Translations under genes and position numbers: made by a program
Source: Isoetes taiwanensis
Taxonomy: Eukaryota; Streptophyta; Lycopodiopsida; Isoetales; Isoetaceae
DNA length: 64,000 bases
Reading direction: 5' to 3'
Assembly: GCA_021234155.1 (NCBI GenBank)
Contig: JAJEKV010000040.1
Location: 7,811,161-7,875,160 of the forward strand
Notes under the pieces: model-generated
Told to the model about the DNA's origin: nothing
Seen by the model: the letters and a program-made list of their open reading frames with translations, nothing else
Database searches by the model: none
In this document: positions 14,440 to 26,382 of the stretch, piece after piece
How the letters are laid out: each line of letters opens with the position of its first letter
Position numbering within the stretch: the stretch's first letter is position 1

Positions 14440-16800
14440 ATGATGGAAAATGGAGGAGGTCAGATATCCTCACATCGTGCCTTGCTGCTTTAAAGGCATG
14501 CTGGCAGTTTAAGGAATATACATGCTGAGGACCAAATTCATGCTGCTGTCATTGGCAGGCAGGATTAAACATCAATGTAGCTTATACTCTAATACACATG
14601 TATTTAAAATGTAGAAACAGGCTAGATGCATTGCATTTTGACAGGATATCTCATCGAACTGTAGTATCTTGGAAATGCTGTGATATTTGCTTCACAGAGA
14701 TGAAGTCACGAGTCAGCACTAAGGTGTTGCAACCATGCAAGGTGCAGGCATAAAGCCAAGTGCTTTTTAACTTTATTGATGCACGAGAATCTGTACTTGT
14801 AACAAAGAAGTTGGCAAGGTAGTTTCAGGGAAAGCTTCTAGAGAAAGGCATGTCTTCGAAAAGAGCATAGCCATACCTCAACTTGCAAACACTAGTCCGA
14901 CCCAGCATTTCGGTTACAAATATACACACAGTTGATATACATGCCAAATGTTGGTATGCCTCGTGCTGCTCAGGTTTTCAATGAGATATAACGTTATAAT
15001 GTGGTGTCTTGGAACGCCATGATCTTTGGATACATAGAGAGTGGGGAGAGTGACTTGGCTTTGCATTTATATTCATGGATGCAATATGAAGGTTTTGCAC
15101 CAAGCGATAGAACCTATCTTGCTGCATTAAAGGCCTGTGCTGGTTGTGGAATGAAGGAAGAGGGCAAGCATGTCCACGGAAAGCTTTTGAAAGTTGCATG
15201 TCTAGAGAAAGGCATAACTCTCTATTCTCAACTTGCAAAAGGAGGACATGAAGGGGACATTTTTGTGGCAAGAAGCCCAATGGACATGTACGGTAAATGT
15301 AGGAGCATGGTGCACGTTCATCATGTTTTTGATGGGATGACACATTGTGATGTGGTATTGTGGAACGATTTGATATTTGGCTATGAAGAGAGTGGTGAAT
15401 ATAAACTAGCTATGGATCTATTTGTACACATGCAAGATGATGGCCTCACCCCGGACGGTAGAACCTATGTTGGTGCTTTGAAGGCATGTGCTAGCTGTGC
15501 AGAAGAAGAGCAAGGCAAGCAAGTGAAAATAATGGTCCTAGAGAAAGCCATAGCCATTCACTCTCAACTTGCCAAGAATGGGCATGAGTTAGACATCTTT
15601 GTAGCAAACATGCTCATTGATACATATGCCAAATGTCAGAGATTGGCATGTGCTTGTAGGTCTTTGACAAAATGAAGCATCATGATGTAGTGTCATGGAG
15701 TGCTGTGATCTTTGATTATGCGGAGACCGGTGAAGTTAAGCTGGCATTGCAATGCACACATGCAAGATGAAGGCTTTATTTCAAATAGCAGAACTTATGT
15801 CGCTGCTTTGAAGGCCTGTTCTAGCCTTGCATCTAAAGAAGAGGTTACACAAGTTAAAGGAAAACTCATGAAAGTAAAGTGCATAGAGAAGGGCATAGCT
15901 ATCCACTCTCAGCTCACAATGGGCGACCATCAATTGGACGTTTTTGTAGCAAGCATGCTGGTAGATATGTATGCCAAATGCGGGAGCATGATTCATGCTC
16001 AACATGTCTTTGACAGGATGCTATATCACGATGTGGTGTCATGGAATGCTATGATATTTGGGTATGCAGATAGTGGAGAGTGTGAGTTGGCCTTGCATCT
16101 TTTTGCACAGATTCAAGGTGAAGGTTTTACACCAGATGCTAGAACTTATATAGCTGCTCTAAAGGCTTGTGGAGATCTTGAAGCTCTAAAAATTGTTAAA
16201 GAACTTCATGATCAAAATTGCCTTGCTGGTTTCCAAGAGGACTCAGTTTTGACAAACTGTCTAATCCAATTTTATGGTAAATGTGGGAGCATGGCGGAGG
16301 CTGAGCAGGTGTTTGGCTCAATGAACACAAGGGACTTGGTTACATGGAATGCACTGTTAGCAGGAGGAGATGCCAGAAGTGTCTTTGATCTCTTTGAGAC
16401 CATGGAGAGAGAATCGGTCCAGGCGGATGGTATCTCATTTCTCTGTATCATCACTGTTTGTAGTCATGTTGGTCTTGTAGAGAAGGGGAGTATTTTTGAG
16501 GTTATGTGCTTGCGTTATATGATTGCTCCTGGTATTGAACACTATGCCTGCATGGTTGATCTCCTTGGTCGGGCCAACAGACTGGATGATGCGTTGGCTT
16601 TTGTCAAGGTCTGCCCTGTCAACTAATTTGACAATATGAAAAACATTGTTGCGTGCCTGCCAGAAGTGAAAAAATGTGGTGGTTGCAAACCTTGCCTTCG
16701 AGTCCATACTGCAATTGGACGAGGAAGATACTGCAGCATATGTATTGATGGATTTATGTGGAATGGGGCATGCAGGAAGAGTCTGCAAAAATTGACGCAA
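14440..16800 (+). pseudogene. Decayed pentatricopeptide repeat (PPR) protein gene, E-type
   Basis: PPR proteins bind organellar RNA through tandem repeats of about 35 residues and, in the PLS class, carry C-terminal E and DYW domains for C-to-U editing. Two long open blocks (15001-15675 and 15712-16626) show repeated signatures: VVSWNAMIFGY, TYIAALKAC, DVFVASMLVDMYAKCGSM. Upstream, 14440-15000 carries eroded repeats (LAALKACW, DRISHRTVVSW) with stops. Between the two blocks, 15660-15750 is in another frame (VFDKMKHHDVVSW), explained by a one-base loss near 15656 and a second indel near 15750. After PGIEHYACMVDLLGRAN, an insertion of TAAT near 16633 shifts the frame; the E-like segment (NVVVANLAFESILQLDEEDT, TAAYVLM) continues in the other frame behind a TGA at 16667-16669. 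No DYW domain is seen. The copy is intronless and broken, so it is almost certainly a pseudogene. Confidence 0.9.
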
Positions 16801-19789
16801 TGAGGGGATGACAATGGAGTAGTTGACTTGCTTTATATCAGGGATACAAGCGATACAGAGACTGAAGAAATACAAGCATTCCAATTGCTGTTGAACTAAA
16901 GAGCAGTACATACTTGATTTGTACAAGACTTATCTATTGGCACAGTGAGAAGTTGGCTATTGGTTGCGCCCCTATAAAATACAGCTCCAGGGACATTAAT
17001 CTGCATTGTCAAAAATTTTAACTCTATTATGCTTTATCATAAGACCACCGCAAGTGTCAAAGATAGAAAATGGACTAGTCATCCAAGCGATGCAAGACAA
17101 TTGCATGTCTTTCCTGATGGCTGCACTTATAGACATTGTTCCTGACCATCGATCAATGCAATATTCCCTCAATTATTCCTTCCTGAGCATTGTGGACCGT
17201 CTGTTGACTCCGTGATGGGGTCAAACTGCCATTTCCACATCAGCCTTGAGATTCATAAACTATTGTCCAAAGTCAACATACATCATACATCTGTGTCACA
17301 AATACTCATGCAAAAGAGGGGAATTGAACCCCTTAAGCATCGTGAGGCAGACCAAGCAATTATATAAGTACTATATAAATACGTCCTGCATTATCACAAC
17401 CAACCCTCAGGAAACAAAAATGTGCTTCGCCGTGAGTTGTTCCCCTGGTATGAATATTGTCGCTCATTTCTTATTACCACTATGTCCAACCACTTGAACT
17501 TAATGCACTCCTTGTGCCCTCGCAGAAGCTTGTCAAATCAGCAATGCAATGACATTTTTCAGAGAACACATTCACTTACCATAGCACAACTGGGCATCGC
17601 GACGCAGGAAATAGATCGCCAATAGACCGCAAGTAAATAAAATGAGAAGAGCAGAAATCCTAAGCTTATTGTACCAAATCATGATATCAATTGCATAGCA
17701 AGTAAGCTTATGTAAAACTAAAGCTCTAGATTTATTCTTCCAAGCCGTATAATGACATATGACAGCATAATGAGTAGCTCCCCATTCCACATTTTGCCAC
17801 CTTTTTATGAGCATAATGGTAAACTTGTATCTAAAACTAAGGTTCTAGATTAATTTCTGTCAAGCTATGGCTAAAGATAAAAAAATAAAGATAGAGCGTA
17901 AAGGCACCTCAAGCATGATAAGGAGGAAAACTATGGTACTTCCAAAGATCTTCAATGATTTTTCTTGCTTCAATTAAGATTTTAAGGTACGAATTGTTGC
18001 AACAGAGAACAAGTATTCTCAATCTATGTGTATAGACAGAGGCATCTTACCCGTGGGCCTTACATATCACAAAGATAAAGGGCACAACAAAGTGATTAGG
18101 GTGCCCCATCCCTCGCGGGCTCCTTACATATGTAGAAAGAAGTAGAATAGCAATGTGCAACTTACTATTGAAATTCCAAGAGAAAGAATAGAAGGCCCTT
18201 CAAGATAAAGAAATGTAAAACCGTGATAATGGAAAATTAGATGTGTAATCATGGAGTGCTTTAACTTACCTCCTGACTTTCTCACGAATAGAAGCATTTG
18301 CCAATGCTTTTATCGAGCAAATGGCTTCAAGGACCTAAGCTGCCTGCCCTTCGCTGGTATTTAATCTAAGGCTCCAACGACCGCTATGCTCGACTTCGCT
18401 CAAATGTAAGCCCAAAGAAGGCCACCATGCCCATTCTCCCTCGCCCAACGGGCCATTCCAATCCGACACTGGATCTCCACTCCCACCTAACCCATGGTTG
18501 CCATCCCTCGCTACCGCTCCACCGCCAAAACAAAAGTAGCCTTCCACCTGCATCCAAACTCGACGCCACCGTCACAAAGAAAAATACTATGGCATATATG
18601 AATACATGCTCAAACCATTGCAAACCTTATGTAAGAGCTCCCCCATTCCACATTTTGGCCACCTTATGGACATTCCCCATGAGCTGCTACAAGACCTTCA
18701 ATTGGAGCTTGCTTTTAAAAGGTTTCCACATGAGCAGAACAAATTTAATTTTTCTCATATATATGTTTACCTAGCAAATACGTAAAACAAATAATTTTAT
18801 TTCACAGATTCAAGATAATTAATACAAGGTAAACAATATTCACAAATAATTTTTAAATCAATATATATCAGAATTCTTTTGGCTTTGACAACATCATAAA
18901 TGTACATGCCATGTTGAATGGTATAGTTTTAAAGCAAAAGGTCCAACATGTCTAAGTAGAATGTAATTGAGTGCGAGAGGATGTTTGTCCTGAATGATGC
19001 CTTGTTAAGAAAACGAAGTGTTCTCCTGTCCTCATGAGTTCAAGAAGCGTTGCTAAAAGTAATTACTTAAAATATTTTGTATGAAAATAAAAACGATACT
19101 AGCTTGTCAATGCTCCGAGTACTCTCAGTTAACCATCGCTTTACTTCCCAATTATCTTGGGCAATTGTTGTTTTGGGTGGAGATTACATAAGATTTTGGA
19201 AGGTTAAGTGGTGTATTCGTATGGGGAAGGAGTATTTTGTCAGACGCCGTAAATACCAGGGGATTTGACTTAAGTAGGTCGGCTTTTCGCTTTTAGAAGT
19301 GCTTTGGCGTCGGCGGGGTTGTGGGCGCTGCGGAGGCGGCGGGAGCGTAGGTGAGTGCTCTATATGCTGCTGTGAGTTGCTAGGCATGTCCTTTTGCAAT
19401 CGAAGGTGAGTGCCGCCTTTAAATTTTGGGGCCATGGCAGCGTGTTCTCCATCGTGGTAGTTGTGTTCATCTCGCTTGCTCACCCGCCGCCTTCCCTCCG
19501 TAGTTGTGTTCATCCTGCTTGTTGCTCTTTACCTTATGCAAAGGATCTTGTGCTGTGGTTGCTCCCAGAATCGCTATTGGAATCGCGGAAGAGGACAAAT
19601 AGGTGTAAGAAATAAAGTTTTGCCTCGGTGACCAATTTCTCTTGTATTGATGTAAGGGGAGCCGTAAGGGCAAGGGTAGATTAGACATTGAGGATGAGAA
19701 GAGTGGGTTGTTGGATGTGAACCTTACTCTAGGATATGCTGGGAGTGATGTTTCCTTTAGCATGCTCGACAAACTTCTGTGGATTACCC
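16801..19789. other. Intergenic spacer, no gene recognised
   Basis: Sequence is moderately AT-rich with short frames only. Near 17310-17345 there is a tRNA T-arm-like string (GGGGAATTGAACCCC), but no cloverleaf can be drawn around it. A proline- and histidine-rich frame (18427-18774, plus) and its minus shadow come from a locally GC-rich segment. The segment 19270-19600 is also GC-rich without a supported exon. Confidence 0.5.
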
Positions 19790-20850
19790 GGCTGAGTGAG
19801 GCCAGGTCGCGGCTCGAGGGGATTCAGATGATCAGCCTGTACCGCGGCAGTTCCGAATCATCGAACACCTCAGTCGTGAATGTTATCGTGCCTTGTTGGG
19901 GACTGTATGCATCCTCAGAAGGCCTGAAGAACGGCCAGCGACATTGCTTCGAGGGATCAGCTGGATTGCCTCCTGGCGACCTTGGGAAGGTGCACTTTGC
20001 GGTTGTTTTCATAATGTGAGGAGAGCAGAATGGTGATGGCAACACCAGATTCGCCACGTGGTGCGTGATCTCAAATAAAGGACAACAGTAACTTCAGCCG
20101 CATAAAGCTCATATCATTTCGCGGAGTACCACGGTAGGAGCAGCCGCCCCGCTTCATCGTATATCGTGGTGTCGGGATAAGAAGACGGGAAGTTTATTCT
20201 ATATAAAGTCAAGAGATCTTGCCTATTAATCGCGTATTCATTTCGCAGCAAAATGTGAAGCGTAGCTGTAGAGAATAACGCCGCATCTGTCACAAAGCCA
20301 TGCTTCCGCTGATGCTCGTTGTGTCGCCTGTCAGCCCTCGGCAAACCCGCCTAACGCATTGGCAAGGCTTGCGGAAGAGAGATTACGCATGATGCATGCA
20401 GCCCCTCAAGATGGAGATGAAGGGTTTGCTGATATGTTGTCAGCCCCATTATTGCTCGACTCATTGGTTACACGATGGTTAATAATCGACGTGGCATGCT
20501 TGCATTGTTGTTTATTTGCAATTCAGTTGCTTCTTATATTGATTGTGGTAAGCTCAAAGAATCGGCTCTGTGCATGTGCCAGCCGTCGCCTGTTCCCAGT
20601 GGCAGCAGGTGGAGCTCTTCACCCTCCCACAGCCATCCTAACCGCACTGTGCCCGGCAGTGCTTACCTCCACCTGTCTCCACATCCCATCTGCAGCCATG
20701 TGGCATGCCGAGCTGCTGACTAGTGTTGTGAACAGTAAACACTTCAGAGACAGCCAGCCTATGTACCGCTTGCATGTGTACCGGGCGCTGAGTTTTATGA
20801 GCCGGGAGGAGACCACAGCATGAATGGATGAAGCGTCGGGAAGCGCGTGC
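19790..20850 (+). repeat. Large imperfect inverted repeat, left arm
   Basis: This arm matches the reverse complement of 21320-22560 over at least six collinear blocks: 20475-20580 with 21660-21771 (both containing TTGATTGTGGTAAG), 20370-20440 with 21850-21960 (AAGAGA and GATGATGCAT, GGAGATGAA), 20695-20820 with 21340-21490 (ATGTGGCAT, then TGTTGTGAA and GGAGGAGACCA), 20150-20330 with 22010-22160 (AGGCAAGATC, AGAATAAACTTCCC), 19990-20060 with 22280-22350 (CACATTATGAA, CCTTCCCAA), and 19790-19900 with 22470-22560. Divergent frames run outward from about 20350 (minus: YAINRQDLLTLYRINFPS; plus: MWHAELLTSVVNSKHFRD). The family is not recognised. Confidence 0.75.
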
Positions 20851-21319
20851 TCGAGCCGGGCATGATGTCGCCGCGGAGTTGAGGTAGCTGACAGTCAAAG
20901 CGCCATGTTGTGGCCTGGCTTTCTAATAAGTGTTAGTGTATATAGGTATGCACAGAGCTGAACATCACTGTGAATTGATTGAAATTGTTTTGTTGTGGAT
21001 TGTGAATATGTTCTTCTGCTATTCTTTCTCTCATATTCTTGTGAATTATGGGAAATGAATAATGTGAGAACTATCTCATAATCCTACAACAAAACAGCTT
21101 CAATCAATTGGCCGGTGATGTTCAATGTGCCCCAGGCATGCCCCTCGCGAACTGCCATTCCCCGGGCAAGAATTGTTGGGAGGTAGAATCTACGGGCCAC
21201 GGGAGACTTGAAAGCCCTCGGAAGCGAACTCCGCCAATGTGCTCAACTTCCGCAGCAAAGAACGCCAAGGCTGCGGTTGTGTTCATGTGGCTCTGGCGAG
21301 AGCTTGCCTCCCTCACGTA
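20851..21319. other. Spacer of the large inverted repeat
   Basis: About 470 bases between the arms. A minus frame (21122-21316) has no match. The arms and spacer together would fold into a long, imperfect hairpin. Confidence 0.5.
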
Positions 21320-22560
21320 TTAATCGCTAAACTCTCATCCCATTCCATACTTCTTCAATGGTCTCCTCCAAATTAGCGGAATAGCGCTCTAGTCGCATGC
21401 GGGCAAAAGGCAATAATGTCGCGAATCGCTCGCAAGAGTGTTTTATATTCACAACACCAGTCGCCAGCCCGATGCCACATGAGCCCGCTTCCTCGACTCA
21501 CAAGATGCTACATCAGATGTGGAAGCACTAGTGGAAATCAAGCTTCCACGCGAGGGGCCTCAGGAATGCAGTTCGGGGATGGCCTGTCAGAAGAGTGAAG
21601 GACTCCACTCACCTCTTGCCGCCTTAATTCCCATATATGGCAAATCGTATGGGCATTGGTACGTGCATGTCCTCGCATGCACAAGACCCGCCTTTTGAAC
21701 TTACCACAATCAAGTAATACAAAAGAATAACTAGTCGCGAAATGAAAAGCAAAGAAATACAAACATGTCATCAGCTGATAGCCATCAGGTAATCAAATGG
21801 AGTCCGTGGTACCGAAATCAGTCGCTCGACGCCCCTCTTATCCTGTGCCCGAACTCTTCGCCAAGCACATCAACAAACCTCTTCATCTCCCATCTCCTGT
21901 GGTTGTATGCATCATCATATTATCTCTTCCTCGCTTTACTCAATCATTCGACGTTGTATACCAAGTAGGACATTGAATATGACATAACGAATATCATTGG
22001 GCATGGCCTATGATGGATTCAACGTTATTCTCCACGCTGCTCTCTACACTAAGGTTCAAATGAACGCAGTTAGTAGGCAAGATCCACTGCTACATAGAAT
22101 AAACTTCCCCGCCCTCAACATCCCAAGACACAAAGGTATACAAGTGAGGCAAATACTACTTCCTTACTATGATACTTTACAAAATGATGGCCTTACGCAG
22201 CTGTGTTCTCATTGGCCCAACACCATAATATTCTTTTCGAGATCACCTGCACCATGAAGTAGATATGTATTTGCCCATCTCGACCGCTTTCACCACATTA
22301 TGAAGGCAAAACCTTGAAGTGAACCTTCCCAAAGTCCTTAATGCAATATCCAATCCGGGCCCCTCAAGTAATGCATCCTTGTGTTCTCTGGTTGCCTGGT
22401 GATGAGCAGGATGTCACTGCTTCTAGGATCCCCAACCAAAGAACTTTTTGATAGCAACATTTACAGCCCGAGGTGTTTTCAACGTAGTTCTGAGCACTCC
22501 CTGGCAATGCAAATGATCCATCTCGGATCCCCTCTCAAGGGCCACAGCCCCTGCCACTTC
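21320..22560 (-). repeat. Large imperfect inverted repeat, right arm
   Basis: Right arm of the inverted repeat described for 19790-20850. In mirrored order it shows the minus-strand frame with VVNIKH, SCERF and RLERYSANLEETIEE (about 21490-21350) and the plus-strand frame with SRQDPLLHRINFPALNIP (about 22060-22130). The protein-level similarity between arms (VVNxKH; RQDxL, YRINFP/HRINFP, LLPxY) suggests that both derive from a once-coding sequence. Both arms are now broken by stops and frameshifts. Confidence 0.75.
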
Positions 22561-22960
22561 ACTTCAAGAAACCCAAGTTAACCATCATTTTACTTCAAGA
22601 ACCTGACCCCAGAATAGAAGACCACCTAGAAATAATTAACCACCACTTCACTTCAAGAAACCCAAGTTAACCATCATTTTACTTCAAGAACCTGAGCCCT
22701 AAATAGAAGAAAACCTAGAAACAGAAAAATCCTCACTTTTTATGAGTGTCTTAGCTCTAGGGCAATCTCCATCATCCAAGCCCAAAAATCTAACCATCAC
22801 GTCATTTCAAGAAGCCTAGTTAACTAGAAAGTTAACCATCATTTCATTTCTAGAAGATGTTTTACTATCACTTTACTTCCAAAACCCCAGCCAGAATAGA
22901 AGAAAACTTGAAAACAGAAAACTCCTCACCTTTTACTGAGTGTCTTAGCTCTAGGCCAAT
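22552..22960. repeat. Nested direct repeats
   Basis: A unit of about 88 bases (CACTTCACTTCAAGAAACCC, then AAGTTAACCATCATTTTACTT) occurs at about 22554 and 22644. A longer unit that includes AGAAGAAAAC, AACAGAAAA, TCCTCAC and GAGTGTCTTAGCTCTAGG recurs about 190 bases later (22700-22770 and 22900-22960). No coding content. Confidence 0.8.
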
Positions 22961-24059: not shown

Positions 24060-25330
24060 TTTCATGGCGGCCTTCGCTGCAACTATTTTCAGCTCTTGAG
24101 ATGAGAGAAGCTACATGAAATATTATGTTGGGGATATGTCTAGCCACCAGTGGCCAACCTTATGTTCCAGTCAAGTAATAACAATTCCGTAGTGGAACTT
24201 GTTTTGCTTCTCTATCTTCATTCTAGCAATCCTAGTGCTTCTATTTCTCAATGCTAACATGGACGCCAACTGGAATCCCTAATAACTTAGTGGCCTGTCC
24301 ATGAGCAAGCAACTTCCATGGATAATCATGAACATACTCCAGAGTCAGAATGTCCAACATCCATAAAGTTGTACATTTCTACCCCACAAGGACACCAGAA
24401 GCCAGTAAGAATGTGCCTAGGAGCGCAGCTTCTAGGTTCTCAATGTTAGCGACCAGAAAGAGGAACATGTCATCTGCATATTGATTGCAAACTTCTTGTG
24501 TGCCATCCTCCATTGCGAGACCATGAAGAATCCCCTCTGTGGTTGTAACAGTGAATAACTGTAATAAAGCCTCTGCAACAATTGTGAAGAGCAACGATGC
24601 TAAAAGGCATTCCCGGCAAATACCACAATCAAGTGACAAGACCTCCGATGGCTTACCATCGAACATAACAGTCGCCCGAGCAGAGACATGCAACTTCATG
24701 ATGTCTACGTAAATTGCTGCCCAAATCCCAGTCTTAGCATACATTGATGTATGAACTCCCAGCTAATATTGTCATATGCCTTCGCATAATCAACCTAAGG
24801 TACACAACTGGAAGGTTTTGCTTACATGCGCAACAACATTGCTTAGAATGCATCTTTTTGGAAGAAAACCTAATTGAGTTATCGAGATGAATTCAATCAA
24901 GATGTCTTTCACCCGCTTTGCAAAAGCCTTGACAAAGATCTTATATACAAATGATAATAAGGTGATTGGTCGCCAATCTGAAATAGTATGAGGATCCTTG
25001 ATCTTGAGGATGAGTTTAGATTCTATCTAAAGCAGTAGACTGCCGGAAGTCATAGAAAGAATCATACACATCTGGCTTCAATCATTCCCAATACTATTGG
25101 AAGAACTTTCCAAACCTGGGAACTTTCCTCTTTTCAGTTAAAAGATCGCCAAACCTAAATCATCAGCCGTTATAGCTGCCTCTATTGATACACGATGCTC
25201 ATTAGAGATGATGGCGGAAATCCTAGACAAAACTGCATCTCGTGTTTCTGACTAAAAGAGGATGTTTCTCAGCAAAACATATCTGAAAGTCATTATGCAG
25301 ATGCTGTTTGAGTTCCACTAGCTTTGTTGG
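24060..25330 (-). mobile_element. Degenerate LINE reverse transcriptase fragment
   Basis: Read on the minus strand, the order of motifs is that of a plant LINE ORF2. First comes ITADDLGLAIFLTEK (about 25180-25135), then KIKDPHTISDWRPITLL, KIFVKAFAKRVKDIL and ITQLGFLPKR (24990-24860), then AYDNISWEFI (near 24760). Next is the palm region with SLDCGICRECLLASLLFTIV and the catalytic box YADDMFLF (24650-24460). QATKLLGIPVGVHVSI (near 24290-24240) follows, and finally VVARHIPNIIFHVASL (near 24130). Several frameshifts and stops separate these blocks. No endonuclease domain is present, so this is an internal fragment of a dead copy. Reverse transcription of its own RNA would have been its ancestral function. 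Confidence 0.9.
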
Positions 25331-26382
25331 CCGCAAGCTAGAACTATATTGAAGCAAAAGCACATAAAATTAAGGTATGCAGATGGAGTATGACCTTCTG
25401 AAGGATGAAAAGTGCCCCATGCCTATTAGGGGTTATAGTAACCATATTTTGTATTGGCAAAAGAATGAACTAACATCAAACATCATTCCATGTGCAAGAT
25501 ATGGCTATTGCTCAAAGAAGATGCAAAAGACAAAGAAAATGAAATTCAAACCCTTGAATTGGTTTAAGGTTGAAGGACTGCTTCAAAACTATGCCCAAGT
25601 TAGCTATTCACGAGGAGAAGTTACTACCAAAGCATCTTACATCAGCAATGGATTCATTTGACAACTTATTTGGCCGAAGGTGTTTGCAAGTACATTGGAT
25701 GTTGATCTATGCATTATTTCCATATGGAGGTGTGAGCTGTCGAGAAGGATGATTTGTTAAAAAGGATTTTCTTCATATCACTATATAATGGATGTATTTC
25801 ACCGTGTATTTGATTGTCGTCAGATGGATGTTCCTCACTAGTCGTTCCCGTAAGTAATCTTAGTTATTCACGTGCGATGCGTGTTTTGTTATATGACTTT
25901 ATGGTATTGTTTCTAAGCGCAGAAAGTGACAGTAACCTTCCTTACCTATTATATGATCCAATCCCGTGGTGGTCAGGATCAAGCACCACCGTTGAATGTC
26001 AGATCTTAGTACATGCATCATTTCTCGCATCAATACAAGTCATCCATTTTCTCCCGCATAGCCAAACACAAGATGTCAGTGATATAAAGAAAGTCAAATA
26101 TTTGTATTGTGTGATACATACCGCTGACTACAATTTTCCACACGCATTACGCCATGTTACCGTTTCTACCTAAGCTTCCTCGCATAATGTAATTATGTAT
26201 TTATGGTTTCAAAGAAAAATTATGTCTCGTGAGGAAAAATGAGAAGGAAGTACTTTCTCGTTCAATTTGTACCGTAAGTACATATATATGTATTTTTCTT
26301 CTTTCTTCCGACACAGAAGTACAAGTATGTGAAGAAGAGACATTCAAGCTTTGCAAACATGTGACAAGTACAAGGCCAAAGT
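25331..26382. other. Intergenic spacer upstream of the Copia element
   Basis: Plus frames at 25377-25661 (94 codons) and 25814-26173 (119 codons) are open but match nothing I know and lack clear splice borders. The last bases (26378-26382, AAAGT) are the target duplication of the neighbouring retrotransposon. Confidence 0.4.

Follow-up and report, generated by a model that had tools for sequence, protein, structure and literature searches.

The window, the 64,000-nucleotide stretch of Isoetes taiwanensis DNA analysed here, carries an insertion that we read as two 3′-truncated Replitron copies lying tail to tail, their divergence being mostly error in a raw nanopore gap-fill; taken as a whole, this reading is probable. 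The features on which it rests are as follows.

17250-22440, no strand: putative error-dense assembly patch with sharp edges, in which five unrelated sequences carry 6-8 small indels per 100 bp
19147-19148, no strand: left insertion boundary, flank CTTTACTTCCCA followed by element ATTATCTTGGG; the flank match to the paralogue L067 runs to about 19157
19148-21036, + strand: left copy, Replitron-derived, element position 1 to about 2120 of 2754, 3′ end missing
21037-21044, no strand: centre of the inverted pair, where the copies break off close to each other on the element, at positions of about 2120 and about 2135
21045-22557, - strand: right copy of the same Replitron-derived element, positions about 693-2135, without 5′ and 3′ ends
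22554-22555, no strand: right insertion boundary; 22555-22598 is 100% identical to L067 over 44 bp

Geometry and empty site of the inverted pair

A repeat search of the window found ten inverted blocks in collinear order over 19978-22336, among them 20539-20576/21676-21713, 20187-20205/22091-22109 and 19978-20004/22310-22336. Local alignment of one arm against the other scored 1483, compared with a maximum of 361 among 100 mononucleotide shuffles, confirming the collinear inverted repeat described in an earlier note on this DNA. Its extent, given there as 19790-22560, holds at the right end, where the right copy reaches 22557, but 19790 is only the start of the paired part and the left copy begins at 19148. 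The 0.47-kb spacer reported there is in fact about 10 bp, with the centre near 21040: the central 20973-21109 pairs almost throughout, and the predicted fold of 20961-21125 continues almost through the centre, with -71.9 kcal/mol for 165 nt.

When the assembly was searched with the left flank, window 16.1-19.2 kb proved to have an inverted paralogue, which lies on the same contig some 4 kb past the window's end. This paralogue, L067, matches window 18663-19157 and then directly 22555-22598 at 100%, and the whole pair is absent from it. Since L067 joins window position 19157 or so directly to 22555, the pair occupies one insertion point only, and L067 is its empty site. The left boundary of the insertion coincides with the canonical 5′ end of the element, and the right boundary is internal to it, at element position of about 693.

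Two observations concern the surroundings. An 89-bp tandem of 1.9 copies (22554-22721) lies directly at the right insertion boundary, and L067 has part of this tandem. On the left, 15043-17137 is a pentatricopeptide-like gene region, the 3′ part of which (16075-17137) has an inverted paralogue some 4 kb to the right of the window (C1046, about 7879.5-7881.2 kb).

Identity of the arms as Replitron copies

We searched the assembly (1,658,258,908 bases in 1110 contigs) and found that either arm matches dozens of dispersed copies in the same genome, where the arms occur singly. The left copy matches more than 30 dispersed copies at the DNA level and has the exact 5′ end common to 15 of them; the right copy has 44 genome matches and is 79% identical to C1092:2692274-2693733. 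Extension with one clean copy, L011 (C913), gave a unit with the fixed 5′ end ATTATCTTGGGCAATTG, shared by those 15 copies. On the 3′ side the unit ends at about 2754 bp, in an approximately 15-bp tandem, GGATTAGACGAGTAT. Both arms are truncated copies of this one dispersed element of about 2.75 kb. By eye, a tRNA-like box A/B was also seen at L011:3015-3110; ARAGORN and Rfam returned nothing there, and this candidate was rejected.

A frame of the L011-type unit matched the Pfam family PF21859 (Replitron_HUH) weakly. Better-preserved copies scored 72.6 bits (L063) and 71.8 bits (L018, the copy nearest to the window's arms), well above the cut-off of 28.5 bits. The open frame of L063 encodes 362 amino acids, with DHLHCQG, the HUH motif, and GYCLKD; both motifs lie inside the PF21859 match in L063 and in L018, and the choice of the catalytic tyrosine in this HUH protein is presumptive. 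The broken frames of the window's arms gave no Pfam match by themselves, and comparison of the HUH protein with PDB sequences gave no match at E<=1. A first look at PF21859 across the genome yielded 2165 candidates, and 150 of the 150 scored exceed the cut-off.

Replitrons are reportedly the subject of a study by Craig (2023, PNAS), of which PMC10741241 gives a summary. On inspection, the element has no terminal inverted repeats, as the 5′ end lacks a complement in the 3′ tandem, and this tandem has no clear repeat at the 5′ end. Neither the window's empty site nor the copies that have both ends showed a target-site duplication; in the window, the left junction lies inside the error-dense patch and the right end is internal to the element. 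Known Replitrons are 0.9-4 kb long, occur in green algae, liverworts, mosses, lycophytes and ferns, and have direct terminal repeats of 5-11 bp and target-site duplications of 2-8 bp (PMC10741241). The window's element resembles them in its PF21859 matches above the cut-off in better copies, the absence of terminal inverted repeats, its length of 2754 bp between shared ends, which fits their range, and its lycophyte host. The window's own copies, in contrast, are broken, 3′-truncated and inverted to one another. The unit, previously called unidentified, therefore belongs to a family that is already known. As a separate observation, the sequence behind the HUH frame (L063:2581 to the end, and L077) resembles a plant GH9 endoglucanase by eye and may be a captured gene or a neighbour.

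We then located the coding sequence in the window by tblastn. On the + strand the L063 HUH protein aligned to the left arm at 19609-20436 (E=7e-21), and on the - strand it aligned to the right arm at 22557-22054 (E=2e-24), indicating that the arms were once coding, as had been proposed, and that the genes converge on the centre. The RQD..RINFP frames (- strand, 20114-20350; + strand, 21988-22257) both run opposite to the coding sense, and the frames formerly taken to run outwards are antisense shadows.

Transposons of the Foldback (FB) type have inverted arms able to fold back on each other. The pair shares this property with them, but its arms are truncated copies of a coding element, are unequal in length and are found singly at dozens of sites. 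Of the earlier suggestion of a foldback transposon, the transposon origin was upheld and the Foldback type rejected, as long terminal inverted repeats do not define the mobile unit, which is the single 2.75-kb element with its fixed 5′ end.

The indel-dense tract and its explanations

The indel load of the arms is unusual. In comparison with L018 they have 7-8 indels per 100 bp, while other copies that are equally mismatched have about 1-3. We followed the indel rate along the window, against a control rate of 0.3-1.3 per 100 bp. To the left of the arms, the rate was 1.4 at 16075-17137, 6.6 at 17250-18339, 5.7 at 18363-18667 and 5.5 at 18663-19157. It was 8.2 in the left arm, 7.4 in the right arm up to 22440 and 0 in the right arm's last 118 bp, and a LINE-like repeat at 24255-25331 had only 0.9 despite 16% mismatches. 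At the inside rate, the Poisson probability of 0 indels in 118 bp is 2e-4, and that of 10 or fewer in 1076 bp is 4e-22. The excess thus sets in near 17250, within another repeat (L068 comparison), continues through a third repeat stretch (L070), the unique flank (L067) and both arms, and ends at about 22440. Mismatches and indels both reach their highest rates within the paired arms.

Because this indel-rich divergence has sharp edges and ignores the repeat's own borders, sequencing error explains it better than age, and the description of the repeat as ancient is not supported. Such edges would be unexpected for a mutational process and would be expected for an assembly patch. In a tree of sampled copies, the tip branches of the arms are 0.48 and 0.29 and the median is 0.045, which makes the arms look much older than every other copy in the sample (40 of 905 candidates were scored for the sample, in which older copies may be under-represented). 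The arms' differences from other copies are mutually independent, with 63 sites differing in both and 58.5 expected. A strand bias of mismatches, considered as proof of single-read error, was dropped, as the control copy L040 is similarly biased.

Two further observations were made to the right of the pair. The LINE-like repeat carries reverse-transcriptase-like frames on the - strand (QYADDMFLFL) and has about 40 genome matches, mostly 77-80% identical. The adjacent 25343-26017 differs from its only match (L076, C1056) by 5.2 indels per 100 bp, and either side may be an error-dense patch.

It is unlikely that the arms are two independent old Replitron insertions, side by side, which decayed naturally with many small indels. 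In its favour, the arms do not come out as close sisters in the tree, which is star-like near them (70/64 support, long tips), and copies do insert near existing ones, as head-to-tail neighbours show: at L021 (C952:8371-8374 kb), the second copy begins a few bases past the 3′ tandem of the first. But the indel excess sets in about 1.9 kb before the pair and ends 118 bp short of its right end, and the nearby LINE-like repeat, though older, has few indels. Moreover, the two copies break off at almost identical positions of the element, and they share one insertion point according to the empty site.

True hypermutation of the tract, for example by palindrome-triggered repair or silencing, would agree with the peak of both rates inside the paired arms. 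It is nevertheless very improbable, since the tract takes in non-palindromic flank and a second repeat, and other inverted pairs of the family are clean. The methylation type was rejected outright: C-to-T changes do not dominate, and the arms have more CpG, not less. We consider it similarly remote that the inversion was produced by a chimeric nanopore read that folds back on itself. The error-dense patch does include the centre and the left junction. But in the clean stretch 22440-22557, next to the true right flank, the element is already in - orientation, and next to the true left flank the insertion opens with the canonical 5′ terminus in + orientation; a read of the fold-back kind would lead back to the right flank without reaching the left one. 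The inversion is thus most likely real. An inverted gene duplication whose hairpin transcript feeds small RNAs, for which the strong fold of the centre could be cited, is extremely improbable, as the unit is a transposon and not a host gene.

Under the preferred reading, an error-dense gap-fill over a real inverted pair, the assembly procedure offers a source for the errors. The assembly paper, in its parts dealing with sequencing and assembly, gives 1658.30 Mb in 204 scaffolds and 909 contigs, obtained with ONT R9.4.1, miniasm, racon, pilon and Bionano; the Bionano step was followed by two LR_Gapcloser rounds with pilon between, and no polishing is reported in those parts after the last round (PMC8566536). 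LR_Gapcloser can use raw reads for filling (PMC6324547), and at inverted duplicates nanopore base calling becomes less accurate and bases are missed (Spealman 2020, PMC7229812). Judging from the sequence, most of the arms' divergence would then be base-calling error in a patch of raw nanopore fill at about 17.25-22.44 kb. A gap filled in this way is plausible here, as true inverted duplicates disrupt assembly and are read wrongly by nanopores, and this trouble may explain both the existence of the gap and the poorer state of the arms relative to the flank. The tract is like the failure described by Spealman in that miscalled and missed bases are dense at an inverted duplication, but here it extends over non-palindromic flank, which argues that gap-filling with raw reads was needed as well. 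Likewise, three other inverted pairs of the family (C1032, C909 and C952) are not indel-rich, so palindromy alone is not enough for such errors and a gap-fill is required. The published lycophyte assembly would thus contain at least one patch, some 5 kb long, whose dense errors can pass for the marks of ancient sequence. Within a patch of this kind, dating and pseudogene calls are unsafe, and for users of the I. taiwanensis genome the patch matters more than the repeat.

Other inverted pairs and the origin of the pair

We looked by eye for close opposite-strand pairs in the lists of related copies. Four more were found, all of them tail to tail.

C1032 (L029): arms stop at element positions 1800 and 1798; 91% alike
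C909 (L039): arms 92% alike
C1056 (L060): tail to tail
C952 (L078): 86% alike overall and about 97% near the centre; spacer of about 110 bp

No head-to-head pair was seen among the close opposite-strand pairs of related copies, and a 30-mer pattern with 60 sites revealed no further close inverted pair. With the window's pair, five of five are tail to tail (two-sided binomial, 0.06), a bias that is suggestive only. The junctions differ among the five pairs, indicating separate events. In each of the four pairs listed above, one arm is shorter at its 5′ side.

The window's pair could have been born in a single transposition event by fold-back, a possibility that we put forward tentatively. The HUH nuclease would transfer a strand starting at the canonical 5′ end, and the transferred strand would lose its 3′ part. 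The free 3′ end might then snap back and prime synthesis on itself; copying would stop at element position of about 693, and the product would be joined to the target. Snap-back synthesis from such a truncated strand predicts that one arm is shorter at its 5′ side. A competing account is the insertion of one copy next to another, of which L021 is a head-to-tail example. Duplication at birth is unproven, since in C1032 and C909 the arms are no more than 91-92% alike, and those of C1032 are, in the tree, no closer to each other than to unrelated copies. It is less likely than not that Replitron transposition in Isoetes repeatedly gives fold-back insertions, in which self-primed, truncated single-strand intermediates would yield tail-to-tail pairs with one arm longer at the 5′ side. 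In this Replitron-rich genome, the inverted pairs could serve for studies of insertion by these HUH transposons, about which little is known.

The separate repeat of about 1.5 kb to the left of the pair (17138-18667) is absent from L067, and many of its copies have an identical first base (window 17139). Several of them lie within about 10 kb of Replitron HUH matches on the same contig, and one case is itself an inverted pair (C1048:11914771-11918670).
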